DNA from: an uncultured Spirochaetaceae bacterium
GTDB taxonomy: Bacteria > Spirochaetota > Spirochaetia > Sphaerochaetales > Sphaerochaetaceae
NCBI GenBank assembly: GCA_944389025.1
Contig: CALXKU010000001.1
Location: 1 to 64,000, forward strand
DNA length: 64,000 bases
Direction: 5' to 3'
Shown: positions 22,646 to 43,657 of the stretch, in pieces
Numbering within the stretch: position 1 is the stretch's first letter
How the letters are laid out: each line of letters opens with the position of its first letter
Made by a program: the position numbers and the translations under genes
The notes under the pieces: model-generated
Databases searched by the model: none
The model's input: the letters and a program-made list of their open reading frames with translations, nothing else
What the model was told of the DNA's origin: nothing

Positions 22646-23513
22646 ATTCGATAAACCGTATAAGAGAAGGATCTCTTTTTGTTAGAGAATCAAGGACACT
22701 CTTAACAAATATGCTCAATGAATTAAGAAGGCTTGTTCTCATACCTGAAATCCTGACATCAGAATTCACCAGGTTAACAATTTCCATTTTCCTATTGGAT
22801 GTTAGTTCTTCTTCTACTGGACATTTTGCTACAAAATTGTCTATTAAGGGACGAATAGGTTCCATTATATCGCAGCCGAGATTGAACTCGTTAAATCGAT
22901 TCTTATGAAATATACCAATCTGGGTGATATATCCATTCGCAACAATTTCTCTGTTTATAGCAGATAAGATTACCGAATAACCATAATTGAGTGCAGCATT
23001 GATGTAATTATCTTGTTCTCTGGAGAAATCCATTCCAAAGAGTGCATTGAAATAAACTTTTGCGGCATGCCCTTCTCTGTTTGTGACGTCTCCTTCCTCA
23101 ACTTCCATGATATATTCATATATTTTCTCAGAGCCTTTCTTGTCGAACTGTTCCAAGCACTTGCTTTGTCTGTATATTTTTTCTTTTATTATTGTTGCCC
23201 ATATTTCTGCTTTGATTTTTTCTGACCATTCTGTTTGATTCTCAATTTTCAGACTTGTATCATGGCTCCCATAATATGGTAGTAGCTGAGCTCCTGGATT
23301 CCTTTTTTCGTCGCAGAATATTATGCAGATCTTTTCTTCCCATAGTTTCTGTAAGAGGGCAGTAGTTAATGTGCATCCTGTGTTCTCAATAATAAGGACT
23401 GAGATGTCAGGAAGAAAAACCTTCCTGACATCATCTGTATAACGTATTACAAGGTAGCCTAATTTATACTCCAGCTTTGCTCTTGAAGATATTACAACCA
23501 CCCTCCAACTCAT
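22635..23513 (-). CDS. cas1: CRISPR integrase Cas1, type II
   Basis: 292-residue Cas1 of type II form. It inserts new spacers together with Cas2. The metal-binding triad is visible as Glu147 (NREGHAAKVYF), His203 (IFHKNRFNEF) and Glu218 (DIMEP). The start codon shares one base with the cas9 stop (TAATG), so translation is coupled. Nothing suggests damage, so adaptation should be functional. Confidence 0.96.
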   Translation of the reverse strand: MSWRVVVISSRAKLEYKLGYLVIRYTDDVRKVFLPDISVLIIENTGCTLTTALLQKLWEEKICIIFCDEKRNPGAQLLPYYGSHDTSLKIENQTEWSEKIKAEIWATIIKEKIYRQSKCLEQFDKKGSEKIYEYIMEVEEGDVTNREGHAAKVYFNALFGMDFSREQDNYINAALNYGYSVILSAINREIVANGYITQIGIFHKNRFNEFNLGCDIMEPIRPLIDNFVAKCPVEEELTSNRKMEIVNLVNSDVRISGMRTSLLNSLSIFVKSVLDSLTKRDPSLIRFIEYEF

Positions 23514-26500: not shown

Positions 26501-27550
26501 GGAAAAACCGGTTTTCATATCCGAATGGAAGAACTTTCCGTATTCACTTTTTGAAAGATACTTTTTACATATCTTCTTAAGGAGATCTAAATCATTTCTA
26601 TTGTTTTCATATAATGCGACTTTTGCTTCAGAAAGAGTGGGATAGCCACTCATTACGAATGCGAGCAGAGACCAGTCATATAAGGATTTTGCAAGTTCAA
26701 TAAATTTGAATTGATCACTTTCAAGATTCGCTTCCAATTCAGGCAGTATCTGATCATCGTAGCTTGCACTCGAGAATTCAATATCTTTAAGATCTTTGTA
26801 TTCTGCATTGTCAAATAACTTTTCCGCCTTAACCTTGTTCCCAACAAGAAGCTTTATGATTTCCGTTTTCAGTTTGCTGTCATCGGTTCTTATGATTTTC
26901 GCAAGTTCTTCTTTTCGCTTTCCTTTTGATTTCTCTTGCAGTGCATTTTCAAGAGCAGAATGATCGGGAACAGAAAGTTCAGCGTCATATATATTTTGGA
27001 ACGTTTCTTTCATCTCATTTAGCACAGAGGAAAGATCCAGGGCAGCTTTTAGATTTTCTCCTGGAAAAAGGAAGTGTCCACGGTTTTTCATAATATGGCT
27101 TATAGCAAGATACACAAGTCTCACATCATGGTAGGCATTACTCGTCATCAGCTCTTTTCTTAAATGGAATATAGTCGGGTATTCCTTGAAAAAATCCTTG
27201 TCCTTGAATCCTTCATCATTGAAAAGGGAGTTTTTCTGTTTTTCGTTTTTATCTTCCGCATAAAGTGCACTATCATTTAACCTGAGAAAGAATGTTGGAT
27301 CAACTTTGTCTATTTCCTTATGAAAGAGTGACTGCGTGAGCTTTATGCGTTCTTTTCTTCTCTCAAGCCTTCTTCTGGCGCAGCGCTGTACACGCCTGCT
27401 TTCAGCGGTAAGTGCTTCATCAAACAGGTGAGAGCCCCACATTGACTTTCCATTGAATTTCAATATGTTGTAATCGGTATCTGTAACCGCAAAACCATCA
27501 GATTCCGTTCCACAATCAAGCCCAATGTAATAATCTTTCTCAAAATTCAC
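23513..27550 (-). CDS. cas9: CRISPR effector nuclease Cas9, type II-A
   Basis: About 1345 residues with all catalytic residues in place: RuvC-I Asp12 (YIGLDCGTE), an Arg-rich bridge helix (RRVQRCARRRLERRKERI), RuvC-II Glu764 (VFLEVAREKG), HNH His849 with Asn863 (DVDHIYPYSQ...LNNKVL), and RuvC-III LHHAHDAYLN (His983, Asp984). It should cut DNA matched by crRNA. The start is GTG at 27550, preceded by AGAGGAGG. A longer frame to 27622 would add 24 odd residues encoded across the tracrRNA anti-repeat and was rejected. It is first in the cas9-cas1-cas2-csn2 operon. The gene is visibly AT-richer than its neighbours, which suggests acquisition by transfer. Confidence 0.97.
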   Translation of the reverse strand: MNFEKDYYIGLDCGTESDGFAVTDTDYNILKFNGKSMWGSHLFDEALTAESRRVQRCARRRLERRKERIKLTQSLFHKEIDKVDPTFFLRLNDSALYAEDKNEKQKNSLFNDEGFKDKDFFKEYPTIFHLRKELMTSNAYHDVRLVYLAISHIMKNRGHFLFPGENLKAALDLSSVLNEMKETFQNIYDAELSVPDHSALENALQEKSKGKRKEELAKIIRTDDSKLKTEIIKLLVGNKVKAEKLFDNAEYKDLKDIEFSSASYDDQILPELEANLESDQFKFIELAKSLYDWSLLAFVMSGYPTLSEAKVALYENNRNDLDLLKKICKKYLSKSEYGKFFHSDMKTGFSNYIGKIHYGNKNVAVKRCSTEDFYKEIRSILSKAEESDPDVCAIRNSIENGTFLPLLISFRNGAVPQQINRMELEAILNKASNYLPFLNEKDETGLTVSEKLLSVFCFRIPYYIGPLGSNPNNKNSWMVRKEEGKILPWNYKEKIDIEASAECFIRRMTSKCTYLPKEDVIPKNSLLYSKYLVLNDLNNLRINGQKLETGKKHEIYHELFGMQKKVTQAKLKKYLIFKGWFSKNDDIEITGIDGDFKSSLSSYIDFKNYIETGKLKRSDVEEIIKWLTLFGDDKRMAKSRICKHYAEVLSDDEINNIIRLKYSGWGRFSEKFLSGITTQIKGTDEFKSIVSLLWETDENLMEIIHHYEFSEPLGNNEKIDKLNYHDVDDLYVSPSVKRQIWQTLRIVDEIVKIMGKPPKKVFLEVAREKGNAGERKESRKNSLLSIMKNKKKELPSDIEEIIRSLESFEESDIAKRDKLYLYFTQCGKCMYSGRPIDIGDIGTAVDVDHIYPYSQSDDDSLNNKVLVYSEYNREKTNDYPIKADIRQKMASFWKMLKDKELISKSKYERLMRATPLTESDLSGFIARQLVETAQSTKATADILKRYFGDNTKIVYSKAGNVSKFRDKFKINKSRSVNSLHHAHDAYLNIVVGNVLDVKYTSNFFRMGKNTGYYNLAYPFNYNVEGAWEAGEDGTISLVREVLAKNNILFTRQPVTRKGQLFDLMLVKAGSKQGVLPAKLSNPVLQERIKEFGEEAAVKAWTDKYGGYNSQTTAYFALVRHEEKEKPFATFIPISIIDSESLSEEKKLIEYCKTTLNMSNPRILFAKLRANTLIKVDGFLLAISGKSSGGSKITLKNNVPLYLANELTGYVKKIDKFLERKQKYKNYVLSETHDEITIDKNILLYEELGRKANQNIYLKRPGCQTKVINDGLDKFISLSLEEQCKVLSNMIIYFSMNNGLCDLSLIGGKPNTGTLTISSKVDLTKKKLSVIHQSITGLFSEEVVIK

Positions 27551-27551
27551 C

Positions 27552-27580
27552 TTGACATCCTCCTCTTTATGTTTTTCAAT
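27552..27580 (+). promoter_or_regulatory. Predicted tracrRNA promoter inside the cas9 translation start region
   Basis: TTGACA at 27552-27557 (a perfect -35 box), 17 bp, then TTCAAT at 27575-27580. The predicted start near 27587 is exactly where identity to the repeat begins. The promoter overlaps the antisense of the cas9 ribosome binding site and stands 1 base from its start codon. Confidence 0.65.
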
Positions 27581-27586
27581 AAAGTT

Positions 27587-27685
27587 ACTAACACAGTTTG
27601 TCCAAATAAAAACTATGTTCAAATCGCCCGTGAGGGTCTCCCGTCGTAGGGATTAAAAATCATCCTTGGAAAGGGTGATTTTTTT
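27587..27685 (+). ncRNA. Predicted tracrRNA
   Basis: About 99 nt opposite and upstream of cas9. The anti-repeat is ACTAACACAGTT (27587-27598, identical to the plus-strand repeat), then a short TGT bulge, then CCAAAT (27602-27607), pairing with the first 20 or so bases of the minus-sense crRNA repeat. Two small hairpins follow (CCC-GTGA-GGG at 27627-27636; TCCC/GGGA at 27639-27652). Then comes an 11-bp terminator stem (27657-27667 with 27671-27681) and a T run to 27685. A strong promoter lies just upstream. Position, pairing, and terminator agree, so I consider this well supported. Confidence 0.88.
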
Positions 27686-27929: not shown

Positions 27930-30071
27930 ATGGCAGCAACAAGGATTGATGATAAAATCAGGCGCTCAGACGCTTTAAGCAAGGCCAGAGGAGAGGCGAA
28001 ATACGTTTCCGATCTCTTTTTCGACGGCATGCTTTACGCCATGATGCTCAGAAGTACGGAAGCCAGAGCTGATATCATCAGCATCACACCTCCAACTCTA
28101 CCCGACGGGTATTATTTCATCACCGCAGATGATATTCCTCCCGAGGGTAAGAACGGACTGCATATGATAGCAGAGGATTGGAGATGCTTTGCAAAAGGTG
28201 ATGTGAGGTTCGTCGGAGAGACTATCGGTCTTTTCGTTGGTCCTTCTAGGGCCGTGCTCAAGAGCCTTGTGGATAACACGAAGGTCGAATACAGCGTTAA
28301 GGAAGGTGCGTATTCAATAGATGATGCGATAGCTATAAAGGGTGGCCCGATCGTAGAGGGAAAAGAAGATGACGTCATGTGTCAGCTTTACTGCGAGAAG
28401 GGAAGGGACATGGAGAGCGTCTTCAAAGAGGCTGATGAGATTCTCACAGAGACATTCGAGACAGGATTTCAGGAGCATGTTCACCTTGAGACGAACGGCG
28501 CTGTCGTGATGGAGGAGGGTGAGAACTACGTGTTCTACATCTCATGCCAGTGTCCGTTCTATGTGAGAAAGTCTGTTGCCGGGCTTCTGGGTATTCCTGT
28601 AGAGCGTGTGATAGTCAGACAGACTACTACCGGAGGTGCTTTCGGTGGAAAGGAGCACTTCCCAGATGTGCTTGCCGGTCCTCTTCTTGTTGCTGAACAT
28701 AAGATTCATAAGCCGATAAAGCTAATCTTCGACAGGGAGGAGGATATGGAGTTCTCCGTCAAGAGGCATCCTTCGAAGATAATATATAAATCTGCAATCA
28801 AAGACGGGAAGCTTATCGGAACCAAAGGTGACATCTATTACAACTGCGGAGCATACCTCTCCGCATCGTTCGTAGTTCTTCAGCGTGGAGTATTCCATGC
28901 CAACGGCGTGTACGATATCCCGAACACCTATCTTACGGGATATGGCATGGCTACGAACACCTTCCCAAGCGATGCCTTCCGCGGCTTCGGTGCACCTCAG
29001 ACCTTGTTTGCAATTGAGATGCATATGAGTCACATCGCAAGAAGGCTTGGAATCGATCCTGCAGATTTCAAGAAGAGCATGTTCCTGAAGAAGGGCGGGG
29101 AGACGGTGACGAACGGCCATGTGGTTGAGGAAGTCATGCTGAACGAGATGTTCGACAACATCGCAAAAGAGTCCGATTACTACCGAAAGAGCAGGGAGTA
29201 CGGATATGGCTCGGGACGTGGCATCGGTGTGAGTTTCTATAACCATGGTGGAGCTTTCACCGGTAACGGTGAGCAGGCGATAATCAAGGCTCATGCCCGT
29301 CTCAGGAAGGAAGGGGAGCGTGTCATAATCGAAGTGGGCTCCACGGAGATGGGACAGGGTTTCCAGACCATACTGAGAAAGATTGCGGCAGCGGTTCTCG
29401 AGATTCCTATCGAGAATGTCGACTATCCGAATCCAGACACATCCTGTGTCCCCGATTCAGGACCGACCGCAGCATCCCGCTCTACTATGATTGTAGGTCG
29501 TCTCATTGAGCGCTGTGCCCAAGAGATGAAGGAGCGCTGGGGAGAAGGGGACTTCACCGTTGAGAAGGAATATGAGCATCCGGACGGATTCCCATGGGAT
29601 CAGAGCACGTTCCGCGGGGACGCGTACCTCGGGTATGGCTGGGGAGCGGCTATCGTTGAGCTCGAGATCGACAGGCGTACTAATGAGGTTGTAGTCAAAG
29701 GCATCTGGTCAAGCCATGAGATCGGTAAGGCGATAGACGAGCTCATCGTACACGGTCAGATCAATGGAGGTGTCATACAGAGTCTCGGATATGCCTCCAT
29801 GGAGAAGATGGAGAACAGGAATGGTCACTTCAAGCAGACGAGCATGTCCGACTATGTGATACCTACCAGCATGGATTTCCCGGAGCAGTACTATCACATC
29901 CAGGAGAATCCGTATGAGTTCGGTCCATTCGGTGCCAAGGGTATGGGAGAACTCGTTTTCAACGGTGCGGACGCAGCATATGTCGATGCCTTAGAGAGGG
30001 CCATCGGCAAGGAAGTATATAAGATTCCTCTTCCACCAGAGGACATAGAGGAGGCGCTGAGAAATGCTTGA
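27930..30071 (+). CDS. Xanthine dehydrogenase-type molybdenum-binding subunit
   Basis: 713-residue large subunit of a molybdenum hydroxylase, probably acting on a purine or other N-heterocycle. Molybdopterin-contact motifs are seen: TTGGAFGGKE, DAFRGFGAPQ (Arg in the substrate pocket), GSTEMGQGF, and FGAKGMGE with the catalytic Glu near the C-terminus. The downstream genes supply the 2Fe-2S and FAD subunits, completing a three-chain xdhABC-like enzyme. The neighbouring selenium genes suggest a labile selenium in the active site. Exact substrate is unproven. It overlaps the next gene by 8 bases. Confidence 0.9.
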   Translation: MAATRIDDKIRRSDALSKARGEAKYVSDLFFDGMLYAMMLRSTEARADIISITPPTLPDGYYFITADDIPPEGKNGLHMIAEDWRCFAKGDVRFVGETIGLFVGPSRAVLKSLVDNTKVEYSVKEGAYSIDDAIAIKGGPIVEGKEDDVMCQLYCEKGRDMESVFKEADEILTETFETGFQEHVHLETNGAVVMEEGENYVFYISCQCPFYVRKSVAGLLGIPVERVIVRQTTTGGAFGGKEHFPDVLAGPLLVAEHKIHKPIKLIFDREEDMEFSVKRHPSKIIYKSAIKDGKLIGTKGDIYYNCGAYLSASFVVLQRGVFHANGVYDIPNTYLTGYGMATNTFPSDAFRGFGAPQTLFAIEMHMSHIARRLGIDPADFKKSMFLKKGGETVTNGHVVEEVMLNEMFDNIAKESDYYRKSREYGYGSGRGIGVSFYNHGGAFTGNGEQAIIKAHARLRKEGERVIIEVGSTEMGQGFQTILRKIAAAVLEIPIENVDYPNPDTSCVPDSGPTAASRSTMIVGRLIERCAQEMKERWGEGDFTVEKEYEHPDGFPWDQSTFRGDAYLGYGWGAAIVELEIDRRTNEVVVKGIWSSHEIGKAIDELIVHGQINGGVIQSLGYASMEKMENRNGHFKQTSMSDYVIPTSMDFPEQYYHIQENPYEFGPFGAKGMGELVFNGADAAYVDALERAIGKEVYKIPLPPEDIEEALRNA

Positions 30072-30540
30072 TAAAAAGATTACTTTCACTCTCAACGGAA
30101 AGAAGGTGGAGTTCATCGGAGATCCGCTGAGAAGACTTATAGACACGCTGAGGGAGGATTTTGGTCTCACCGGTGTTAAAGAGGGATGCGGAGAGGGCGA
30201 ATGCGGTGCCTGTTCCGTGATAAAGGATGGAAAGCTCGTGACAAGCTGCATAATCCCGATGGGAGCGGTTTACGGTGCGGACATCTGGACGATTGAAGGC
30301 ATCAGGGATACCGAGCTCGGCTCTACTATAGTCGAGGCTTTCGCTGATGGAGGGGCGGTGCAGTGTGGATTCTGCATCCCGGGCATGGTTCTCGCATCAT
30401 ACGTGCTTTTAAAAGAGAAGAGCGACCCGAGCGAGGAGGAGATCAGGCAGGCGATCAGCGGAAACATCTGCCGCTGTACTGGCTATGACCTCATCGTCAA
30501 GAGCATCCGCCTTGCAGATGAGAGAAGGAGGGGAGTATGA
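30064..30540 (+). CDS. Hydroxylase 2Fe-2S subunit
   Basis: 158-residue iron-sulfur subunit carrying two [2Fe-2S] clusters that pass electrons from molybdenum to FAD. All eight cysteines are present: CGEGECGAC with a later Cys in the plant-ferredoxin-like N-domain, and QCGFC with CRC in the helical C-domain. Length is standard. It overlaps both neighbours (8 and 4 bases). It is the only intact 2Fe-2S partner in the cluster, since the related domain in the 959-residue protein downstream has lost its cysteines. Confidence 0.94.
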   Translation: MLDKKITFTLNGKKVEFIGDPLRRLIDTLREDFGLTGVKEGCGEGECGACSVIKDGKLVTSCIIPMGAVYGADIWTIEGIRDTELGSTIVEAFADGGAVQCGFCIPGMVLASYVLLKEKSDPSEEEIRQAISGNICRCTGYDLIVKSIRLADERRRGV

Positions 30541-31397
30541 ACACGTGCTACATTCCTGAGAATCTTACGGAAGCTCTCGAGATCAGAAGAAAGACGCATG
30601 CCCTTCCCCTTGCGGGAGGTACCGATCTCATGGTCCAGGCGAAACAGGGGATTGGAATCAATCCCGTTTTCAAGAGTCCCATCATGATAATAACCGGACT
30701 TGACGAGCTTAAGGGAATAAGGGTTGAGGATGATGGAACGCTTGTGATCGGCGCTCTTACGACAAGTGCCGAGATTGCCGCGGATGAGCGTGTCTTCTAC
30801 CATATAAGAACAGCGGCAAGCCAGATGGGTGCGATATCGCTGAGAAACACTGCCACGATAGGAGGGAATATCGCGAACGCATCCCCGAAGGGGGATCTCC
30901 CTCAGCCTCTAATCCTTCTTGATGCGACACTTACTCTTGCCTCATTGGATGGGGAAAGGGAGATGAAGGTTGATGATTTCATCACCGGTGCGAAAAAGAC
31001 AGCCCTCAATGATGATGAGATAATAAAGGAGATAAGGGTTAAACCTGTAGAGGCTAACTATCTGTTCTATCATAAGATAGGAACGAGGAAGGCCAATGCG
31101 ATAAGCAAGCTCTCCCTTTCTGCCATGGCTAATGTCAAAGATGGCCTCATCCTCGATTTCAGGGCATCAAGCGGAGCCGCCGGAGACAAGGTCAAGAGAA
31201 AGAGGGAAGTAGAGGAGATGCTCATTGGAAAAGCCGTAAGCGATATCCCGTCTCTTAAGGATGGGTTTCTTACAGCATGGAATGGCATACTCTCGCCACA
31301 TGCGATGCCGACCTACAGAAGGGAGAGTACGAAGAGGATGCTCTCTTACTTCCTTGATAAGATAAGTGAAGGCGCTGAGCTTGGAATAATCAGTTAG
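30537..31397 (+). CDS. Hydroxylase FAD-binding subunit
   Basis: 286-residue FAD subunit of the CO dehydrogenase/xanthine dehydrogenase flavoprotein family. The two FAD-contact motifs are intact: LAGGTDLMVQ (about residue 21) and TIGGNIANASPKGD (about 107). The C-terminal domain typical of the family is present. It would pass electrons from the 2Fe-2S subunit to NAD+ or another acceptor. It overlaps the 2Fe-2S gene by 4 bases. Confidence 0.92.
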   Translation: MNTCYIPENLTEALEIRRKTHALPLAGGTDLMVQAKQGIGINPVFKSPIMIITGLDELKGIRVEDDGTLVIGALTTSAEIAADERVFYHIRTAASQMGAISLRNTATIGGNIANASPKGDLPQPLILLDATLTLASLDGEREMKVDDFITGAKKTALNDDEIIKEIRVKPVEANYLFYHKIGTRKANAISKLSLSAMANVKDGLILDFRASSGAAGDKVKRKREVEEMLIGKAVSDIPSLKDGFLTAWNGILSPHAMPTYRRESTKRMLSYFLDKISEGAELGIIS

Positions 31398-31405
31398 GAG
31401 GTTCT

Positions 31406-32074
31406 ATGAGAGAACTGATAAGAGTTAATAGCCTTGAGGAGGCTCTTGGAAAGAAAGGGGCGTATCTTGCAGGTGGAACCGAGATACTGAGACTCGATTC
31501 CCCTCTGGATAAGGCAATCTCTGTTATCGACATCCTTCCATTCCTCTCAAAGGAGGTTGAGGATGAAGGGGATTGGATCAGAATCGGAGCTGGATGCACT
31601 TTTTCATCCCTCCTTTCCTCTGCTCTCATTCCTTCTTTCCTTAAGGAGGCGCTCTCTTACATGAGCTCCCCTGAGCTCAGGGAGATGGCGACAATCGGGG
31701 GGAACATAGCCTCCTTTAGGGATGACTCGTTCCTGATTCCAACTCTCGCCTCTGCCTATGCACGCCTTGAGGTCCTCTTACCAGGGGGAAAGGAATGCAT
31801 ACCGCTCTCCTCTTTTAAGAGGGATGGTGGGATAATCCTTTCAATAACTGTTAGTAAAACGGCTGATGTAAAGAATTTCAGGGAGAGCCTGACAAGCCAT
31901 TCCCATGCTGTTGTTACCGCCGCTTTCAGTTCTGAATGCGAATGCTACGCGGTGAAGGGTAGTGGGATATTCTTCGACCATGATAGTCTCTCTTTTGCTT
32001 CCGACATGTATGGAAGTGCCGAGTACAAGAGATATCTGTCTGAGCTTTACCGGTCAGAAAGCGGGAGGTCATGA
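31406..32074 (+). CDS. Short, divergent FAD-subunit-like protein
   Basis: 222 residues related to the same flavoprotein family but shorter than the usual 280-290. The first motif AYLAGGTEILR is kept. The second reads ATIGGNIASFRDDSF, where the SP.GD part that contacts FAD is replaced. The C-terminal domain is reduced. It has its own ribosome binding site (TTAGGAGG) and is coupled by a 4-base overlap to the 959-residue hydroxylase after it. Whether it still binds FAD cannot be told; it may have become a structural partner. Confidence 0.75.
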   Translation: MRELIRVNSLEEALGKKGAYLAGGTEILRLDSPLDKAISVIDILPFLSKEVEDEGDWIRIGAGCTFSSLLSSALIPSFLKEALSYMSSPELREMATIGGNIASFRDDSFLIPTLASAYARLEVLLPGGKECIPLSSFKRDGGIILSITVSKTADVKNFRESLTSHSHAVVTAAFSSECECYAVKGSGIFFDHDSLSFASDMYGSAEYKRYLSELYRSESGRS

Positions 32075-34950
32075 TGGAAATCAGAGCAAGAATAAACGGT
32101 AAGAACGTATTGCTTCACGGGGATGCGATGAGCAGTCTCAGAAGGGCGCTTTATGATGCGGGATATAACAGCGTACGCGACAGCGATGACGGGGAGGGGT
32201 TCACAGGAAGTGATACCATAGTCTTCAATTCCCGTCTCATGTACTCCAATCTCATTCCGCTCTTCAGGGCCGATGGTGCTGAGATATACACACCCGAGTG
32301 TCTTATTAAAGATAGGAAGATAAACGATGTCCAGCAGGCCATGATCGATGCGGGAATCGTACAGAGCGCATATAACGCTCCCTCTGCGGCACTTATCCTG
32401 ACATCTCTCCTTGATAGGAAGCCGGATGCTACGAGGGAGGATGTGAAAGAGGCTCTTTCAGGGCTTTTCGTCCGTGATGCGGGGTATGAGCACTATTATC
32501 TAGCAGTAAGGCTTGCTCAGGAGAAGAGGAAGCACGGTAAGTATATTTCTCTCATTGCGCCATCTTTCAGGGAGGGCTTGGAGTACGTTGGAAAGCCGAC
32601 TGGAAAGATCGATGGAGAGGCTCTGGTCTCTGGTGAGAAGGTTTTCGTGGAGGATAAGGTTCTTTCCGGCTACAGCGTTCTTAGAGTACTCAGAAGCCCT
32701 TATGCGCATGCATATATCAAGAGCATAGACTCCTCTGCGGCGGAGAAGCTTGAGGGCGTTGACGCAGTCATCACATGTTTCAACTGTCCAGATGTGTATT
32801 ACATGCAAGCCGGGCAGGGGAATCCGGAACCAAGTCCTCATGACAGGAGGCTTTTTAACCGCAAGGTCCGTCATGTCGGAGACAGGGTTGCGGCAGTGGT
32901 TGCGGACAGCGATGAGATTGCAGAGAAGGCCCTTTCCCTCATTAAGGTGGAATATGAGGCGCTAGAGCCCGTATTCACGGTGGAAGAGGCGATGGCAGAT
33001 GGTGCTCCTCTCGTTCATAACGGCATTGTCGAGTACCGCTCTGGAGCCCCTGCTGACCTTGATGAATATAACAGGAATGCAAATCCCCTGGATGGAAAGG
33101 TTATCTATCAGTTCCCGCTTCACGGAGATATAAGGCATAATATCGCAGCCGGTGCTCATGGTGGTATCGGGGATATCGAGAAAGGTTTCAGCGAAGCTGA
33201 TGCCATAGTCGATTCAACCTATCAGACGAGCCAGGTGCAGTGTACTCCTCTGGAGCCCCATGTGTGCTACTGCCGCCTTGAGAACGGAAGACTTGTCATT
33301 CATGCCTCTACACAGGTTCCTTATCATGTCAGGCGTATCGTAAGCTGGGTATGCCAGATTCCTGAGCATAAGATCCATGTCATAAAAGAGAGGGTAGGTG
33401 GCGGATACGGAAGCAAGCAGGATATTCTTGTCGAGGATCTTGCAGGATATGCGACGTGGATCACAGGTAAGAGCATCTATTACCGCAATTCACGCGAGGA
33501 GGAGTTCTGGGCCAATTCCACACGTCATCCGATGAGAGTCAGGGTGAAAATGGGCGGAAAGAAGGATGGAACGATCACAGCGATTTACATGGATGTCAGG
33601 GCGAACACCGGTCCTTACGGCAATCACTGTCTTACGGTCCCTATGAACGCATCCAGCAAGACACTCCCGATTTTCGCTGTTGAGAATATGTACTACGACC
33701 TTCTCACGTATTATACGAACATACCTCCAACGGGTGCCTATCAGGGGTATGGTGCGCCGAAAGGCTATTTCGGAATCATAAGCGCGATGGGCGAACTTGC
33801 TATGAAGCTTGGTATCGATCCACTGATGATGGCAAAGAAGAACATAGTGCATTCGGGCTACATGCTGGAGATTCTCAAAGGGCTTGGCGAAGGGCGTGAG
33901 GGAACGGTTGTTCCTGTCGGTTCCTGCGGCCTCGAGGAGGCTCTCGATAAGGGTGCCAGGATGATAGACTGGGGTAAGAGGGAGATCTCCGAGGATCCTG
34001 ACTGGGCGATAGGAAAGGGTTTTGCCATGATTCAGCAGGGCTCGGGACTGCCTGGTCTCGATCACTCGAATGCACAGGTCAAGCTTGTCGCAGATGGAAC
34101 TTTCCTTGTCCTCTCCGGTGGTGCTGATATCGGAACGGGGCTTGATACCATAAGTGCCAAGTGCTGTGCCGAGATAATGAAATGTCCTCTGGAGGACGTT
34201 TCGGTCGTCTCCGGTGATACGGACTCATGCCTTTTCGATACCGGTGCATACGCCTCAAGCGGTACTTATTTCAGTGGGAATGCATCTCTTAACGCTGCAA
34301 AGGATCTCAGGAGAAAGGTGATTGCCGAAGCCGCACTTCAGATGGGTGAGAGAGAAGAGGATCTTGAGCTTGTGTATCCTGGAAAGGTCGTTTCGAAGAA
34401 GAGTGGGCTTGAGCTCAGCTATAAGGATCTGATCCATACCGCCCTTGCAGGGGACGGAAGGGGAGCCATCGTTGGCACTGGATGCTTCGTAACACCTAAT
34501 TTCGCTGTTCCTTACGGGGCGCATTTCGCTCAGGTTGCGGTAAACAGGAAGACCGGTAAGGTCAAGGTTATGAAGTTCTACGCTCTTCAGGATGCCGGAA
34601 CTCCGATCAATCCAGAGCTCGCGCTCTGCCAGATGTATGGTGCGGTTCAGAAGAGCATCGGTCATACCCTTTATGAGAACATGGTCCTTGATAAGAGTGG
34701 AAAATGCATCAACGGCAATTTCACCGATTACGGTGCTCCAATGATTGAGGAGGCGCCAGAGGATTTCAAGGCCGTGTTAATCGATATCAATGATCAGTAC
34801 GGGCCGTTCGGTGCGAAGTCGATCTCTGAGATAGCGACAAACGGGGCTGCCCCTGCGATTGCGATGGCGATTGCCGATGCAGTCGGAGTCTGGGTACGTT
34901 CCTGGCCGATCACTCCTGAGAAGATTCTTCGCGAGATGGGCAAGCTGTAA
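32071..34950 (+). CDS. Selenium-dependent xanthine dehydrogenase-like protein with cysteine-less ferredoxin domain
   Basis: 959-residue fusion typical of the selenium-dependent XDH family: an N-terminal 2Fe-2S-type region (about 1-155) and a molybdopterin domain. The catalytic part looks intact: VGGGYGSKQ, GAYQGYGAPKG, GGADIGTGLDT, and FGAKSISE with the Glu. The N-terminal region aligns along its length with the intact 2Fe-2S subunit two genes upstream, but every cluster cysteine is replaced. QCGFC corresponds to QSAYN, CRCTGY to VRDAGY, and the first-cluster region reads DSDDGEGFTGSD. This cannot hold [2Fe-2S] clusters. Electron flow must use another subunit or be absent. Stop overlaps the convergent TetR gene by 41 bases. 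Confidence 0.88.
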   Translation: MMEIRARINGKNVLLHGDAMSSLRRALYDAGYNSVRDSDDGEGFTGSDTIVFNSRLMYSNLIPLFRADGAEIYTPECLIKDRKINDVQQAMIDAGIVQSAYNAPSAALILTSLLDRKPDATREDVKEALSGLFVRDAGYEHYYLAVRLAQEKRKHGKYISLIAPSFREGLEYVGKPTGKIDGEALVSGEKVFVEDKVLSGYSVLRVLRSPYAHAYIKSIDSSAAEKLEGVDAVITCFNCPDVYYMQAGQGNPEPSPHDRRLFNRKVRHVGDRVAAVVADSDEIAEKALSLIKVEYEALEPVFTVEEAMADGAPLVHNGIVEYRSGAPADLDEYNRNANPLDGKVIYQFPLHGDIRHNIAAGAHGGIGDIEKGFSEADAIVDSTYQTSQVQCTPLEPHVCYCRLENGRLVIHASTQVPYHVRRIVSWVCQIPEHKIHVIKERVGGGYGSKQDILVEDLAGYATWITGKSIYYRNSREEEFWANSTRHPMRVRVKMGGKKDGTITAIYMDVRANTGPYGNHCLTVPMNASSKTLPIFAVENMYYDLLTYYTNIPPTGAYQGYGAPKGYFGIISAMGELAMKLGIDPLMMAKKNIVHSGYMLEILKGLGEGREGTVVPVGSCGLEEALDKGARMIDWGKREISEDPDWAIGKGFAMIQQGSGLPGLDHSNAQVKLVADGTFLVLSGGADIGTGLDTISAKCCAEIMKCPLEDVSVVSGDTDSCLFDTGAYASSGTYFSGNASLNAAKDLRRKVIAEAALQMGEREEDLELVYPGKVVSKKSGLELSYKDLIHTALAGDGRGAIVGTGCFVTPNFAVPYGAHFAQVAVNRKTGKVKVMKFYALQDAGTPINPELALCQMYGAVQKSIGHTLYENMVLDKSGKCINGNFTDYGAPMIEEAPEDFKAVLIDINDQYGPFGAKSISEIATNGAAPAIAMAIADAVGVWVRSWPITPEKILREMGKL

Positions 34951-37591: not shown

Positions 37592-38527
37592 TTATACTTT
37601 TCTCAGTATTACCTTAGCCTTTCCTCCGCAGGCCATGCCGAGCGGACTATCTTTTTCTAGATCGAAATCTAAGACGCTGAATCTCTCTTTTCTTTTCAGC
37701 ATATCACGTGCCACATGTATGCACTCATTTTCAATCGCGCCGCCTCCGATTGTTGAATGTGTTGTGTTCTCTGTTACCGCCATCTCCGCACCGCTCTCCC
37801 TTGGCCCGGATCCGCTCTTTCCGATTATGCGGACTTTGATGACATCCTTCTCCTCCTTCTCAAGAAAAGAGAAAAGGGTCTCTTCTATTGTTATCTGTCT
37901 TTTTCCTTCTCTGTATGTTTTTATGATTTCGGCCATTATCGAAAGAGCGATCTCCTCAGGGCTCTCTGCGTTGATATCCAGCCCTATAGGGGAGTGAACG
38001 CTCTCAAGACTTTCCCCTTTGATTCCTCTCTCTTTTAAATGGGAGTAGGTGAGGCTGATCTTCTTACTGCTTCCAATCATGCCGACATAGCGCGCATCGT
38101 AGTTTCTCAGCACATAGTAAAGTGCCTCCTCGTCTGCTTTATGGCCATGTGTGAAAATCAGGAAATAGGGATTGGTGAAATCATACTTTCGTGAGAATAT
38201 GTTCTCGTAGCTGTCGATTACAATCAGGGCTTCATAAGGCCCGTCCTTTGTCACATCCGCCCTATCATCGAATATGACAAGAGGAAAGCCAATCATTTTT
38301 GCTATGCGGTATACGCTTTTGCCGATGTGACCGAAACCGAAAAGCACAAGGGTTGGCCTTAAAGCCACCGTCTCTTCAATAATTTCCCCTGATGGTGAGA
38401 AATCTGGAGAGGAGAATATGATCTCATCCCCTCTTAAAAAGCATTCGGCTCCTGTATGAGCATCAGTTAATCTCTTCAGCGCTCCCTTCTCAAGTGCTTT
38501 TATTATTTTTCCGTATTCCTCTCTCAT
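37592..38527 (-). CDS. XdhC/CoxI-like maturation factor with permuted domain order
   Basis: 311 residues. XdhC proteins insert the finished molybdenum cofactor, with its sulfur or selenium, into hydroxylases. They normally run CoxI-like domain first, Rossmann domain second. Here the Rossmann domain comes first (LFGFGHIGKSV near 62, YVGMIGSSKK near 146). The CoxI-like motifs stand at the C-terminus: SGPRESGAEMAV (about 239-250), STIGGGAIE (about 257-265) and GMACGGKAKV near the end, with the conserved Cys. The open frame is continuous, so this is a true rearranged gene. It overlaps the desulfurase gene by 4 bases, implying joint expression for sulfur/selenium loading. Confidence 0.8.
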   Translation of the reverse strand: MREEYGKIIKALEKGALKRLTDAHTGAECFLRGDEIIFSSPDFSPSGEIIEETVALRPTLVLFGFGHIGKSVYRIAKMIGFPLVIFDDRADVTKDGPYEALIVIDSYENIFSRKYDFTNPYFLIFTHGHKADEEALYYVLRNYDARYVGMIGSSKKISLTYSHLKERGIKGESLESVHSPIGLDINAESPEEIALSIMAEIIKTYREGKRQITIEETLFSFLEKEEKDVIKVRIIGKSGSGPRESGAEMAVTENTTHSTIGGGAIENECIHVARDMLKRKERFSVLDFDLEKDSPLGMACGGKAKVILRKV

Positions 38528-39651
38528 CTGCTTTCTTCCCTTATGGCTATAAGAGCCTCGTCAATCTCATCGTCTTTAGTGAACGGGCCTGCGGAAAGCC
38601 TTATCGTACCGCCCGGGTATGTCCCAATCGCTTTATGAGCCGTTGCTGCGCAGTGCAGTCCTACGCGGCTTTCTACCCCATGTTTATTTAGCAGGGAGGC
38701 TGCAAGCTCAGCGTTATCCATTCTTTTCGCACTTATGCTGATAACAGAATTCCTGTTTTCGTCCAATGTACCGTGAACCGTTATCGTATCAATTTTGAGA
38801 AGTCCTTCAAGAAGGCGCATCGTATTTCTTTTCTCCCTTGCCCTAAGAGTCTCAAGATTGTCTTTCACATATCTGACACTAGCTGCAAGCCCATATAGCC
38901 CGGGAAGATTCCGTGTCCCGGACTCGAACTTGTCGGGGAAGAGCTCCGGTTGCTCATAGCTGTCTGAGAAGCTGCCTGTTCCACCCGTTAAAAGAGGTCT
39001 GAGTTTCTCTGCAAAGCTCTTCTCTGCGACAAAGCCACCAGTGCCCTCAGGGCCTAGAAGACCTTTGTGACCTGAAAAGCAGAGTGCGCTTATTCCCAAT
39101 TCATCCATTTTTATATCCACATAGGGCAGGGCCTGTGCGGTATCGATTATGAACGGAAGGCGAAGGTGGGAGGCAATCGTAGCAAGTTTCTCAACGTCCT
39201 CGTTGACTCCGGTGACATTTGATGCGATTGAAAAGACGATTGCCTTCGTTCTCTCATTTTTAAGAGATGGAATCTCATCCAGCATGTTTCTTCCGCTTCC
39301 GTCTGTCGTTGGAAATGAGTAGTTAAGCCCGATGGAGGAAATGGTTCTCATCACCGCATTGTGCTCGCATGCCCCGATTATTATGTGATCACCTCTTTTG
39401 AGAAACCCGCGAAGCACGGTGTTTATCGATTCGGTCAATCCGGAATTAAGAAATACAGTGTCCTCTCCGCTGTGAGCGACAAGCCTGGCGATATCCTCCC
39501 TTAGGCTTATGAGATCGCTTACAGTCTCGTAGCTCTTTTCACTTGCGGTCCTGTTTATGTTCCGTCCGTTCTCTTTTAAGAATGTGAATACCCTCTCTGC
39601 AACCGAGGGTGCCTTAGGAAAACTCGTAGATGCGTTATCCAGGTAAATCAT
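38524..39651 (-). CDS. Cysteine desulfurase-like aminotransferase class V (EF2568 type)
   Basis: 375-residue PLP enzyme starting MIYLDNASTSFPK. The PLP lysine lies in SGHKGLLGPEG and the catalytic Cys in GLHCAATAHKAIG. Such enzymes take sulfur from cysteine or selenium from selenocysteine. This family is regularly found with selenium-dependent hydroxylases. I chose the ATG at 39651 over the longer frame to 39711, because the promoter (TTTCAT, 17 bp, TATAAT) ends 7 bases before it and the longer form would overlap yedE. No Shine-Dalgarno sequence is seen, so the transcript is likely leaderless. Confidence 0.9.
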   Translation of the reverse strand: MIYLDNASTSFPKAPSVAERVFTFLKENGRNINRTASEKSYETVSDLISLREDIARLVAHSGEDTVFLNSGLTESINTVLRGFLKRGDHIIIGACEHNAVMRTISSIGLNYSFPTTDGSGRNMLDEIPSLKNERTKAIVFSIASNVTGVNEDVEKLATIASHLRLPFIIDTAQALPYVDIKMDELGISALCFSGHKGLLGPEGTGGFVAEKSFAEKLRPLLTGGTGSFSDSYEQPELFPDKFESGTRNLPGLYGLAASVRYVKDNLETLRAREKRNTMRLLEGLLKIDTITVHGTLDENRNSVISISAKRMDNAELAASLLNKHGVESRVGLHCAATAHKAIGTYPGGTIRLSAGPFTKDDEIDEALIAIREESR

Positions 39652-39658
39652 GGAAAAC

Positions 39659-39696
39659 ATTATAACACTTTTCCATTGCAAATGAAAAAATATAAT
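39659..39696. promoter_or_regulatory. Overlapping divergent promoters of the desulfurase and yedE
   Basis: Minus strand: TTTCAT (39687-39682) and TATAAT (39664-39659), 17 bp apart. Plus strand: TATAAT at 39691-39696 with a poor -35 inside the first promoter. Both predicted starts lie within about 10 bases of their start codons. Overlap means the two polymerases would compete. Confidence 0.5.
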
Positions 39697-39711
39697 GGTA
39701 CGATTTCTCAT

Positions 39712-40788
39712 ATGAAATCATTGAAAGAAAAAAGGAATCTCGCCATAACCGGTGTCATCATCGGTGCTGTGGCGATTGTTTTGATGCATTTCGGCAATCC
39801 CGGGAACATGGGATTCTGCATAGCGTGTTTCATCCGAGACATCGCAGGTTCTCTAAGCCTGCATAATGCTGCGACCGTGCAGTACATGCGCCCCGAGATC
39901 ATCGGCATAGTTCTTGGTGCGTTCGCAGTAAGTGTCATCAAAGGGGAGTTCAAGAGCAGAGCGGGAAGTTCACCGCTACTGCGATTCATCCTCGGTTTTT
40001 TCATGATGGTTGGCGCTCTTGTCTTCCTTGGCTGCCCGCTTAGGATGGTTCTGCGTCTTGCCGCGGGGGATATGAACGCTTTTATCGGCCTCTTAGGGTT
40101 CATTGCAGGAATAGGGGCAGGTTCTTTTTTCCTTAACAATGGCTTCTCCCTGGGCCGTGCTCATAGCTCTGAGAGGATAGAAGGTGTGGCATTCCCTGCT
40201 ATCAACATTGTCCTTCTTATTATCCTTCTGTTCTTCCCGGCTCTGCTTAAGTTCAGTGAATCGGGACCTGGAAGCATGCACGCCCCGATTTTCCTCTCCC
40301 TGCTTGTCGCTTTCCTCGTTGGTGCGGCCGCCCAGCGTACTAGGCTCTGCATGGCAGGAGGGATCAGGGATATCTTCCTGATTAAGGATTTCACACTGAT
40401 AACAGGATTTTTATTCATATTCATAGCAGCTCTTATCGGTAACATCGCTATGGGTAATTTCCACATTGGCTTTCTGGATCAGCCGATAGCGCATGATAAG
40501 CATTTGTGGAATTTCCTTTCCATGGCTCTTGTAGGTCTTACGGCGGCAATGTTGGGTGGCTGTCCGCTCAGACAGCTTATTCTCGCAGGAGAGGGTAATA
40601 GCGACAGTGCCATAACGGTTCTTGGAATGCTTATCGGAGCCGCGTTCAGCCACAATGCGGGAGCGGCATCGGCAGTGGGAACGGGACCGGCTCTGATTGG
40701 AAAGGTAAGCGTCGTGTTCGGTCTTGTATTTTCTTTAGCACTTGCTGCTTTCATTACAGTGAGAAGGAGGAGCAATGAAAAGTGTTGA
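39712..40788 (+). CDS. yedE: YedE-type selenium/sulfur transporter
   Basis: 358-residue membrane protein of the YeeE/YedE family with about ten hydrophobic segments. Conserved cysteine motifs are present in each half: MGFCIACFIRD, FLGCPLRM, RTRLCMAGGIRD and LGGCPLRQL. In the selenium context this family is proposed to import a selenium compound. It overlaps the following TusA-like gene by 14 bases, starting the operon yedE-tusA-DUF3343-selD. Start is uncertain: the ATG at 39712 lacks a Shine-Dalgarno sequence, and in-frame TTG/ATG codons at 39676/39682 exist but lie upstream of the -10. Confidence 0.9.
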   Translation: MKSLKEKRNLAITGVIIGAVAIVLMHFGNPGNMGFCIACFIRDIAGSLSLHNAATVQYMRPEIIGIVLGAFAVSVIKGEFKSRAGSSPLLRFILGFFMMVGALVFLGCPLRMVLRLAAGDMNAFIGLLGFIAGIGAGSFFLNNGFSLGRAHSSERIEGVAFPAINIVLLIILLFFPALLKFSESGPGSMHAPIFLSLLVAFLVGAAAQRTRLCMAGGIRDIFLIKDFTLITGFLFIFIAALIGNIAMGNFHIGFLDQPIAHDKHLWNFLSMALVGLTAAMLGGCPLRQLILAGEGNSDSAITVLGMLIGAAFSHNAGAASAVGTGPALIGKVSVVFGLVFSLALAAFITVRRRSNEKC

Positions 40789-40981: not shown

Positions 40982-41187
40982 TAATCACGTTTTTCTCTCA
41001 TTATGAGGCTGTCAAAGCAAGAAGGTGCCTTGGAGAGGGGACCCTCTCTCCTGTGCCACGGAGTCTTTCCTCGTCATGCGGTACAGCACTCTTTGTTTCC
41101 TCTGCTGCCTTTTACTCAAACCATGATTTCGTTTACGATAAGGCATATACCATGAAGGAGGGCAAATGGTCCGTCTTACAAGTTTAG
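40957..41187 (+). CDS. DUF3343 putative Se/S carrier protein
   Basis: 76-residue protein of the DUF3343 (Se_S_carrier-like) family. The family hallmark is seen as VPRSLSSSCGTALFV with the conserved SSCG cysteine, after an N-terminal VITFFSHYEAVKA strand-helix. These small proteins occur beside SelD and YedF and are thought to carry selenium or sulfur; biochemical proof is limited. It overlaps yedF by 25 bases and selD by 22 bases, showing dense coupling. A Cys in RRCLGEG is an additional candidate site. Confidence 0.78.
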   Translation: MENNGEEVVITFFSHYEAVKARRCLGEGTLSPVPRSLSSSCGTALFVSSAAFYSNHDFVYDKAYTMKEGKWSVLQV

Positions 41188-42191
41188 TCAGAACTTCAGG
41201 TTGTGCGGCAAAACTCAGCCCGAAGGATCTCGATAGCGTTCTCTCCGATATTCCTCTTATGAGATGTGACGGCCTCCTTGAAGGCTTTGAACATTCGGAT
41301 GATGCCCTGGTTTATGACATGGGTGATGGCAGGGTGCTCATCGAAACGGTCGATTTCTTCCCTCCGATGGTCGACGATCCTTTTACGTTCGGTCAGATTG
41401 CAGCGGCCAATGCTCTTTCCGATATCTATGCGATGGGGGGAGATCCTAAGCTTGCTATGAATCTGATGTGCTTTCCCCACTGCCTTGAACTTGCCATCAT
41501 GAAAGAGATCCTTCTTGGTGGAATGGACAAGGTTAGAGAGGCAGGGGCAGTCATTGCTGGCGGTCACACCATAAGTGACAGTGAACCCAAGTACGGGCTC
41601 TCAGTGACCGGATTCGCAAAAAAAAATGAGGTCTGGTACAACAGGGGGCTCAAGGAAGGAGATGTAATAATCCTTACGAAGAAGATTGGGGTTGGTGTGG
41701 TGAACACTGCAAGCAAGGTCGATGAAGCTGATGAAAGCAGTATAAAGGATGCCATAGCATCGATGACCACTCTTAATAAAAGAGCCCGTGACGCATCAAG
41801 GGGTCTTGATATTCATGCAGCAACAGATGTCACCGGCTTCTCTCTCTTAGGACATCTTAGGGAGATGGCGAAATCATCAGAAAAGACTGTTGAGATCAGC
41901 TACCATCTTGTACCTCAGATAGACGGAGCTCTGGAGCTTGCAAAGTTCGGTTTCCTCCCAGAGGGTGCATACAACAACAGGGAGTTCATCTCTCCGGATG
42001 TTTCCTTCTCCCCTGATATCAAGAGGGAGGAAGAGGATATCCTTTTCGATCCTCAGACATCAGGAGGACTTCTCCTTTCTATGGACAGGGAGAATGCGGA
42101 GATATTCCTTTCCCGTATGAAGGACACCCCTGCATCAATAATTGCAGAAGTGAAGGAAAAGGGAGAAAAGCTCTTAGCAGTCATTCCATGA
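41166..42191 (+). CDS. selD: Selenide, water dikinase
   Basis: 341-residue selenophosphate synthase, making selenophosphate from selenide and ATP. The active-site motif is SGCAAK with Cys13 and Lys16, so this is the Cys and not the selenocysteine form. The nucleotide-binding DFFPPMVDDPFTFGQIAA region and the C-terminal DPQTSGGLL are standard. Start ATG has AGGAGG 5 bases upstream. The neighbours are hydroxylase maturation genes; SelA/SelB and tRNA-Sec are not in the window, so SelD may serve the labile selenium cofactor only or also selenoproteins. Confidence 0.96.
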   Translation: MVRLTSLVRTSGCAAKLSPKDLDSVLSDIPLMRCDGLLEGFEHSDDALVYDMGDGRVLIETVDFFPPMVDDPFTFGQIAAANALSDIYAMGGDPKLAMNLMCFPHCLELAIMKEILLGGMDKVREAGAVIAGGHTISDSEPKYGLSVTGFAKKNEVWYNRGLKEGDVIILTKKIGVGVVNTASKVDEADESSIKDAIASMTTLNKRARDASRGLDIHAATDVTGFSLLGHLREMAKSSEKTVEISYHLVPQIDGALELAKFGFLPEGAYNNREFISPDVSFSPDIKREEEDILFDPQTSGGLLLSMDRENAEIFLSRMKDTPASIIAEVKEKGEKLLAVIP

Positions 42192-42454: not shown

Positions 42455-43657
42455 ATGGCCAAAACCAAGAGTGATATCGAAGCTTTAATCAACAAACTGG
42501 AATCTCTCAATACTGAGGGTATGTATCTTGATGATTTCTTCCACACGTGGAAGAAGAATGATGATGAGATTGATGCGGTATTCACCGTTGCTGAAATTCT
42601 GAGAGGGCTGAGGGAGAACAACATCTCAGCAAAGGTTTTTGATTCAGGGCTTGGAATCAGCATCTTCCGCGATAATTCCACCAGAACCCGTTTCTCTTTC
42701 GCTTCCGCTTGTAATCTGCTGGGGCTTGAAGTACAGGATCTTGATGAGAAGCTTTCCCAGATCGCTCATGGTGAGACAGTGAGGGAGACTGCCAACATGG
42801 TATCCTTCATGGCGGATGTCATCGGTATCCGTGATGATATGTATATCGGAAAGGGACACACGTATATGAAGACCGTCAGTGAGGCAGTCCAGGAAGGCTA
42901 CAAGGATGATGTGCTTGAGCAGAGGCCGACCATCGTTAACCTCCAGTGCGATATCGATCATCCGACACAGGCCATGGCCGATATGCTCCATGTGATCAAT
43001 CATTTCGGCGGGGTGGAGAACCTCAAGGGAAAGAAGATCGCTATGACATGGGCGTACTCTCCTTCCTATGGTAAGCCGCTTTCCGTACCTCAGGGAATCA
43101 TAGGACTGTTCACCAGATTCGGAATGGATGTTGTTCTTGCACATCCTGAGGGCTATGATGTGATGAGCGATGTCGAGGACGTTGCTGCTGAGAATGCGAA
43201 GAAATCAGGAGGCTCATATAAGAAGGTATCTTCCATGCAGGAGGCTTTCAAGGATGCGGACATCGTATATCCGAAGTCATGGGCACCATATGCTGTTATG
43301 GAGGAGAGGACGAAGCTCGTAGAGGAAGGCAAGTTCGATGATCTCAAGGAGCTTGAGAAGAGATGCCTTGCAAATAACGCCAAGTTCAAGGATTGGACAT
43401 GCTCTGAGGAACTTATGAAGAGCACGAAGGATGGAAAGGCGCTCTACATGCACTGCCTGCCTGCGGACATCACAGGTGTAAGCTGCAAAGAGGGTGAAGT
43501 GGATGCATCCGTATTCGATCGCTATCTTGTTCCGCTTTACAAGGAAGCATCATACAAGCCTTACATCATCGCAGCCATGATATTCCTCTCCAAGTTCAAG
43601 GATCCATCTGCAAAACTCTCAGAGCTTCTTGAAGCGGGAAAGAAGAGGATTAAATAA
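42455..43657 (+). CDS. ygeW: YgeW-type knotted carbamoyltransferase
   Basis: 400-residue carbamoyltransferase of the YgeW family. The carbamoyl-phosphate site is FRDNSTRTRFSF (STRTR at 75-79), and HCLPADITG near residue 334 provides the second conserved site. It is longer than ornithine or aspartate carbamoyltransferases. YgeW is typical of anaerobic purine/urate catabolic clusters next to selenium-dependent hydroxylases and is proposed to act on ureido intermediates; ornithine is not its substrate in the family. Its presence here supports purine breakdown as the role of the island. Single-gene unit with its own promoter and a terminator-like stem. Confidence 0.93.
   Translation: MAKTKSDIEALINKLESLNTEGMYLDDFFHTWKKNDDEIDAVFTVAEILRGLRENNISAKVFDSGLGISIFRDNSTRTRFSFASACNLLGLEVQDLDEKLSQIAHGETVRETANMVSFMADVIGIRDDMYIGKGHTYMKTVSEAVQEGYKDDVLEQRPTIVNLQCDIDHPTQAMADMLHVINHFGGVENLKGKKIAMTWAYSPSYGKPLSVPQGIIGLFTRFGMDVVLAHPEGYDVMSDVEDVAAENAKKSGGSYKKVSSMQEAFKDADIVYPKSWAPYAVMEERTKLVEEGKFDDLKELEKRCLANNAKFKDWTCSEELMKSTKDGKALYMHCLPADITGVSCKEGEVDASVFDRYLVPLYKEASYKPYIIAAMIFLSKFKDPSAKLSELLEAGKKRIK

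Follow-up and report, generated by a model that had tools for sequence, protein, structure and literature searches.

A YgfM-XdhD type gene pair with a putatively cluster-free [2Fe-2S] module in a gut-type spirochaete

Introduction

How can a molybdenum (Mo) hydroxylase pass electrons when the module that should carry its iron-sulfur (Fe-S) clusters has no cysteine left at the ligand positions? The question is raised by an operon in a 64,000-nucleotide stretch of DNA (the window; contig CALXKU010000001.1, positions 1 to 64,000 of the forward strand) from an uncultured Spirochaetaceae bacterium, a gut-type spirochaete. Two open reading frames (ORFs) on the plus strand, 31406-32074 (222 amino acids, aa) and 32071-34950 (959 aa), lie directly behind a complete three-gene hydroxylase set, whose genes start at 27930, 30064 and 30537 and are called Mo1, FeS1 and FAD1 here. 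A preliminary description of the locus recognised two hydroxylase sets, the first complete, and regarded the second as degraded: a shortened protein of flavin adenine dinucleotide (FAD) type and a cysteine-less Mo protein were thought to have decayed in parallel around an intact Mo site. It proposed either that two catalytic chains rely on a common redox set or that the Mo enzyme carries out another reaction.

Judged by sequence, 31406/32071 is a pair of the YgfM-XdhD type and as such belongs to an established enzyme family, in which it is unexceptional. We consider it probable that the pair is a urate dehydroxylase of this type and, jointly, that its Mo subunit operates without Fe-S clusters. 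The striking part is clade-wide, E. coli included: an enzyme of the xanthine oxidase (XO) family apparently devoid of Fe-S clusters.

Results

The 959-aa protein encoded at 32071..34950 scores 1215.3 bits against TIGR03313 (XdhD), above the curated cut-off of 1101.9, and is 51.6% identical to E. coli K-12 XdhD over 959 columns. Its first 160 residues (32071..32550) align throughout with FeS1 and E. coli XdhC, as well as with the cysteine-containing XdhD proteins described below, and represent a two-domain [2Fe-2S] module. PMC3958847 describes two [2Fe-2S] clusters as a general property of the XO family. Yet none of the eight ligand positions of the window protein is occupied by a cysteine (0/8; D39, T45, D48, N60, S99, N102, V134 and D136), in line with the cysteine-less Mo protein of the preliminary description. 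Alignment revealed that E. coli XdhD lacks the same eight cysteines. Thus, the loss is not a matter of decay in one genome.

The Mo site presents a different picture. The Mo-pterin domains match MoCoBD_1 with 237 bits and MoCoBD_2 with 221 bits, and the Mo domain core (aa 346-959; 33106..34947) contains Q558 (33742), E607 (33889) and E920 (34828), which were found in 131/131 XdhD representatives, whether cysteine-less or cysteine-intact. The equivalent residues of E. coli XdhA are R, T and E, and Mo1 retains the Arg of AFRGFGAPQ where XdhD has Gln. E607 corresponds to E606 of E. coli XdhD, a residue that Li 2025 (PMC12507026, cited throughout from a portion of its text) places in XdhD and not in XdhA. 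The Mo residues checked are conserved, as initially proposed.

To define the distribution of the two cysteine states, several samples were combined. A pattern-based scan yielded 80 loci (L011-L090), but is biased towards the cysteine-less form because a ligand column lies within one of the two patterns used. Hidden Markov model (HMM) searches free of pattern bias covered 296 Spirochaetota genomes, two sets of 398 genomes each (relatives of one Lachnospiraceae genome and of one E. coli genome) and 394 members of the window's class; XdhD above the cut-off was detected in 16, 1, 2 and 138 of them, respectively, the first and last sets overlapping. Among the 19 matches of the first three sets, 15 were cysteine-less and four had 8/8 cysteines. 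From the 138 class-wide matches, 80 retrieved stretches and the accompanying loci were analysed, the remainder belonging mostly to the window's own family. After exclusion of 14 rows that lacked the N-terminus or scored below 700 bits, 211 rows with a full N-terminus remained, duplicates included: 175 with no ligand cysteine, 21 with one and 15, from 11 genomes, with all eight (first ligand column realigned by one residue). Clustering at 95% identity resulted in 134 representatives (124 cysteine-less, 10 cysteine-intact), 131 of which (121 + 10) are longer than 900 aa.

These 131 proteins fall into two classes without intermediates: the eight ligand columns contain zero or one cysteine in 121 of them and the full eight in 10. 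The cysteine-less group is uniform at several of the vacated positions. D39 and D48 are Asp in 121/121 sequences, S99 is Ser and N102 is Asn in 119/121 each, and S38, F44 and S47 are nearly fixed too, giving the signatures S-D-x-x-x-G-F-x-G-S-D and V-Q-S-x-Y-N-x-P. Position 136 is either Asp (95/121) or Ala (26/121), and positions 45 (Ala in 84/121), 60 (Gly in 19/121) and 134 (I/S/N/V/H) are variable. Fixation of the cysteine-less state extends from Enterobacterales to Lachnospiraceae and to most of the Spirochaetia sampled, and replacement residues are fixed across phyla beyond chance, which points to a retained function of the module. We conclude that XdhD is largely an Fe-S-less clade of the XO family and infer that its cysteine-less members bind no Fe-S cluster. 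It might be argued that the invariant D39 and D48 together with the almost invariant S99 and N102 still hold clusters through oxygen or Asn ligands, given that mixed Asp/Cys ligation is known elsewhere and an Asp(Cys)3 [2Fe-2S] cluster is named in the title of a reference. As positions 45, 60, 134 and 136 vary, however, neither site retains four possible ligands, and cluster binding of this kind is highly improbable. Literature searches among open-licence papers returned no report noting the absent Fe-S ligands of XdhD, nor are the absent clusters mentioned in the portions considered of PMC2997495, PMC3958847, PMC7191737 and PMC2276186 (Haft and Self).

The predicted structure is consistent with a module that has kept its shape. 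The XdhD model has a mean predicted local distance difference test (pLDDT) score of 86, lower in the loops at approx. 31-50 and 131-140. It superimposes over model range 1-958 on the aldehyde oxidoreductase of D. gigas (1sij; Z 38.2, root-mean-square deviation (rmsd) 2.6, 867 residues). The cysteine-free module, which we call pseudo-ferredoxin, is predicted to keep the canonical fold and place between the surface and Mo.

The cysteine-intact XdhD proteins (L162-L165, L206-L211, L213; all from Spirochaetia) share 49-54% identity with the nearer of the window and E. coli proteins. In a Mo-domain tree they group as one clade. Holding all 54 cysteine-less rows of this tree together gave a log-likelihood 3.37 above that of the free search (p-value of the approximately unbiased test, p-AU, 0.58), which is compatible with a single ancestral Fe-S loss without proving it. 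Both states occupy the same cluster slot, ygfM-xdhD-ygeW near ygfK-ssnA-ygeY. The common slot and Mo signature suggest that the two states catalyse one and the same reaction but receive their electrons differently. Acquisition of the cysteine-intact state by domain replacement is not favoured on inspection, the one-residue-longer first loop, VQ(Q/R)ALID and ALSG being common to cysteine-intact and cysteine-less XdhD.

Selection was estimated against the two nearest relatives, whose XdhD is 91-92% identical. The ratio of nonsynonymous to synonymous substitution rates (dN/dS) was 0.10-0.11 for the N-terminal domain, 0.013-0.021 for the Mo domain, 0.03-0.06 for FeS1 and 0.10-0.11 for FAD1, all of them rough values, since dS is near saturation in every comparison (proportion of synonymous differences, pS, 0.59-0.90). 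YgfM was the fastest-evolving piece measured (dN approx. 0.37-0.41), with a ratio of 0.16 in one comparison, the second being saturated. As far as such rough ratios go, the replaced N-terminal domain appears to be under purifying selection, and none of them suggests relaxed decay. The decay once assumed for the Mo subunit thus gives way to an old and fixed family trait.

Three genomes carry two XdhD genes above the cut-off, all of them cysteine-less (L176/L184, L173/L187 and L196/L202 in genomes G1109, G1125 and G1238). Locus L109 of genome G008 encodes an XdhD-like sister protein (594 bits), the match reading through one internal TAG stop.

The 222-aa protein at 31406..32074 holds the position of YgfM. 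A PF00941 domain is recognised with 56.6 bits; a C-terminal flavoprotein domain was not detected in the Pfam search. Its second FAD motif, TIGGNIASFRDDSF at 31691-31732, differs after TIGGN from the ASPKGD of FAD1. In this respect the preliminary description was correct: the protein is short and its second motif altered. Degradation of the FAD module is not confirmed, however. In a set of 41 sequences G24 and G99 are invariant and G23 and G98 nearly so, such that both FAD motifs keep their glycines, and the window protein has the FAD-subunit fold with Gly-rich pyrophosphate motifs. Its model (pLDDT 93.9) matches CutM (1ffv_C) over 220/222 residues (Z 25.1, rmsd 2.1), and the predicted fold is complete. 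An Asp of the flavin loop was compared by eye but set aside, as this residue is absent even from FAD1. The loss of cysteines and the change of the FAD motif did not go in parallel either, because the motif after TIGGN/TVGGN is altered in YgfM of both cysteine states, including YgfM next to XdhD with all eight cysteines. The altered motif is thus a subfamily trait independent of cluster loss.

A YgfM-like ORF is located directly upstream of xdhD in 80/80 of the loci L011-L090, with lengths of 223-313 aa; the short, window-like form occurs in near relatives. It is present in 10/11 cysteine-intact genomes, and none was found in L208. Seven cysteine-intact YgfM proteins (L164, L165, L206, L209, L210, L211, L213) share two cysteines absent from the cysteine-less rows compared, one in the loop after TVGGN (e.g. 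NKSCAS) and one further on (e.g. RTACD).

The companion hydroxylase upstream of the pair is complete, in agreement with the preliminary description. Mo1 (27930..30071, plus strand, 713 aa) comprises MoCoBD_1/MoCoBD_2 and Ald_Xan_dh_C domains, FeS1 (30064..30540, plus strand) has Fer2 and Fer2_2 domains with 8/8 cysteines (CCCCCCCC), and FAD1 (30537..31397, plus strand) carries the standard motif TIGGNIANASPKGD and matches PF00941 (129.5 bits) and PF03450. Mo1 reaches no curated cut-off, its best NCBIfam match being pucD with 326 bits, and is approx. 25% identical to E. coli XdhA; it may constitute a subfamily of its own. It is approx. 40 aa shorter than E. coli XdhA, mainly in the second Mo domain, and adjoins XdhD in Spirochaetia, Shewanella and Photobacterium. 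The companion set probably makes urate from other purines.

Genes of the Mo1/XdhA type occur in the examined stretch of 66/124 cysteine-less and 0/10 cysteine-intact representatives, or 64/100 and 0/8 when at least 5.5 kilobases (kb) of upstream sequence are available. A trade-off between companion hydroxylase and cysteine loss was nevertheless rejected. The cysteine-intact proteins are one clade with another hydroxylase approx. 15 kb upstream: in 9/11 of their genomes an Fe-S domain resides in a frame of 468-555 aa at this distance, and a Mo subunit follows this FeS-FAD frame in 2/2 clusters inspected. Moreover, the background of Fer2_2 matches in the class is high (122/148 genomes at E <= 1e-6, many with weak single matches). 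With a complete hydroxylase near both states, the companion is not a marker of cysteine loss. Many genomes of the Spirochaetia families f3, f6, f9, f10 and others have one weak Fer2_2 match (E approx. 1e-7 to 1e-14), which may represent further Fe-S-like domains, degenerate or unrelated.

These data also bear on the proposal that two hydroxylases share FeS1 and FAD1, with FeS1 binding XdhD or handing it electrons in a mixed complex. The tight operon of five genes in the window and the companion set near many cysteine-less XdhD genes fit such an arrangement. On the other hand, 58/124 cysteine-less representatives have no set in the examined stretch, many stretches being short, and a complete companion is also found next to cysteine-intact XdhD. 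XdhD's own module occupies the docking place in the model, and, in the account of Li 2025 (PMC12507026), activity with NADH (reduced nicotinamide adenine dinucleotide) was seen for the E. coli pair isolated without XdhABC. A shared redox set is hence very unlikely.

Several other genes in the window, all on the plus strand, have urate- or selenium-related assignments. YgeW, the carbamoyltransferase of the urate pathway, is encoded at 42455..43657 (TIGR03316, 768 bits, cut-off 500). SelD (41166..42191; TIGR00476, 369 bits, cut-off 125), the selenium donor of the selenium-dependent Mo-hydroxylase group, and a putative selenium transporter of YedE type (39676..40788; TIGR04112, 487 bits, cut-off 200) lie upstream of it. 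The selenium-Mo cofactor proteins YqeC (53704-54411; TIGR03172, 128 bits) and YqeB (54371-55855; TIGR03309, 351 bits), both above their cut-offs, are located downstream. YgfK (1270 bits), SsnA (546) and YgeY (488) are found elsewhere in the genome, each above its cut-off, and together with YgeW support the assignment of the pair. Queries with E. coli HyuA and YgeX found no match within the window, to which this search was confined. As read from the sequence, YgfK/SsnA/YgeY/YgeW and SelD/YqeB/YqeC/YedE correspond to the gene complement of the reductive urate pathway and of selenium-dependent Mo hydroxylases. As to a labile Se at Mo, the presence of SelD, YqeB, YqeC and YedE in the window is a circumstantial observation.

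The genome contains a third enzyme of the XO family (L246; contig C2, 601-3159), which has a fused Fe-S and Mo architecture with the Fe-S cysteines kept; it belongs to the selenium-dependent xanthine dehydrogenase family TIGR03311 (1206 bits). The minus strand of the window at 37592-39711 encodes an XdhC-type maturation protein (225 bits to NF045664, below the cut-off) and a protein resembling cysteine desulfurase/selenocysteine lyase, adjoining the YedE-type transporter and SelD. Directly upstream of the hydroxylase operon, minus-strand ORFs of 1369, 292 and 224 aa (21654-27622) resemble by eye Cas9, Cas1 and a Csn2-like protein, respectively. We take this region to be a candidate type II locus of clustered regularly interspaced short palindromic repeats (CRISPR).

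Discussion

Of the two outcomes initially envisaged, the second, a different reaction of the Mo enzyme, has good support. In Li 2025 (PMC12507026), E. coli XdhD was purified with a protein of approx. 30 kDa, putatively YgfM, and converted urate with NADH to yanthine (2,8-dioxopurine). By analogy, the window pair would do as the E. coli pair does and perform this first step of the anaerobic reductive urate pathway, with dehydroxylation likely taking place at the normal Mo site. In the course of evolution, the XdhD clade would have lost all eight ligands, most simply once and early, and the Fe-S module would have been retained as a conserved scaffold, the pseudo-ferredoxin with its new fixed signature.

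How electrons reach Mo is the harder part of the question. They could enter via the YgfM flavin, as drawn for E. coli in Li 2025 (PMC12507026), and proceed by a cluster-free step to Mo that is perhaps slow or needs domain movement. We lean weakly towards this route because the E. coli pair works with NADH and YgfM is present in 80/80 loci.

Several points weigh against the reading proposed here. Without clusters, the distance between flavin and Mo in the canonical arrangement is far beyond the normal tunnelling range, and NADH-driven activity of an Fe-S-less pair is therefore puzzling. The best NCBIfam match of the window YgfM, TIGR03312 (YgfM), reaches only 64.7 bits of a cut-off of 241.5, and with its fast evolution the protein could have lost its flavin role; the near saturation of dS makes the selection argument a rough one. 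The passages considered of Li 2025 (PMC12507026) give no Fe, FAD or Mo content of XdhD, no rate and no explicit control without NADH. The text of the paper contains the term 'Fe-S' twice and the word 'cysteine' not at all, and a section heading ties Fe-S reconstitution to YgfK.

No electron chain would be needed in a redox-neutral transhydroxylation, in which a purine such as hypoxanthine or xanthine reduces Mo when it is hydroxylated and urate re-oxidises Mo when it is dehydroxylated, net reducing power entering via another purine hydroxylase. Such a mechanism would account for the complete loss of in-chain carriers next to a fully conserved Mo site. The companion set lies near 66/124 cysteine-less representatives, as stated above, and each of 35 cysteine-less genomes without a nearby set has at least two Fer2_2 matches, XdhD's own assumed to be included, from which we deduce at least one other intact Fe-S protein of the XO family in each. 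However, a companion also accompanies cysteine-intact XdhD and hence does not track the loss. The passages of Li 2025 (PMC12507026) report that E. coli without xdhA still accumulated yanthine, that MG1655 without xdhA left xanthine unconsumed in M9 glucose (a weak point, the cluster being glucose-repressed) and that NADH was the donor added in vitro. Literature searches in open-licence papers on XO-family enzymes without Fe-S and on dismutation or transhydroxylation by XO returned nothing relevant. We therefore regard redox-neutral transhydroxylation as unlikely, and its full form, in which cysteine-less XdhD is an Fe-S-free purine transhydroxylase with pseudo-ferredoxin and YgfM as mere scaffold or regulatory parts, as rather improbable.

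Alternatively, a separate electron protein (YgfK, an AegA/YgfT-type protein or a ferredoxin) might dock near Mo and bypass YgfM. YgfK was detected in 16/17 genomes searched, which were chosen because most of their own XdhD loci have no YgfK nearby and which include the E. coli genome with YgfK beside xdhD. According to part of a review (PMC8097209), E. coli AegA is proposed to act in formate-dependent urate degradation, and the commentary by Percudani (PMC12990295) lists the physiological donor of the related XdhAC as unknown. A docking donor would have to displace the pseudo-ferredoxin, canonically placed in the model, and would leave the constant retention of YgfM without a reason; it is a doubtful alternative. 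Thus, entry through the YgfM flavin, tentative as it is, is the route we retain.

XdhD-YgfM starts urate breakdown in E. coli, a pathway of medical interest for gout. In both the NCBI name ('Mo/Fe-S-binding subunit') and the MG1655 annotation ('Fe-S binding subunit'), XdhD figures as a Mo protein of the usual Fe-S kind. Should the clade indeed be devoid of clusters, something is missing from the electron route currently drawn for the initial urate step. With the cysteine-intact sister clade in the same gene slot, the re-wiring of a Mo hydroxylase can be studied on a natural pair.

The closest known system is XdhD-YgfM of E. coli. It shares with the window the gene pair and its order, 52% identity in XdhD, the lack of Fe-S cysteines, the E606/E607 residue and YgfK-SsnA-YgeY-YgeW in the genome. 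It differs in the length of YgfM (259 aa as compared to 222 aa), the window YgfM lying below the TIGR03312 cut-off, and in its surroundings, Mo1/FeS1/FAD1 not being XdhABC. The cysteine-intact XdhD of Spirochaetia has the same TIGR03313 family, slot and Mo signature but keeps the eight cysteines. Selenium-dependent xanthine dehydrogenase (TIGR03311, L246) resembles XdhD in its fused Fe-S and Mo domains, but its Fe-S cysteines are present. Aldehyde oxidoreductase of D. gigas (1sij), the best whole-chain structural match, likewise has its Fe-S module joined N-terminally to the Mo domain; it binds two [2Fe-2S] clusters and has no FAD partner. The nearest solved structure by sequence for the XdhD Mo domain is 4-hydroxybenzoyl-CoA reductase (1rm6), a reductive dehydroxylase of the same superfamily with an extra [4Fe-4S] cluster in its FAD subunit. 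Unlike XdhD of the window, it relies on a separate Fe-S subunit equipped with clusters.

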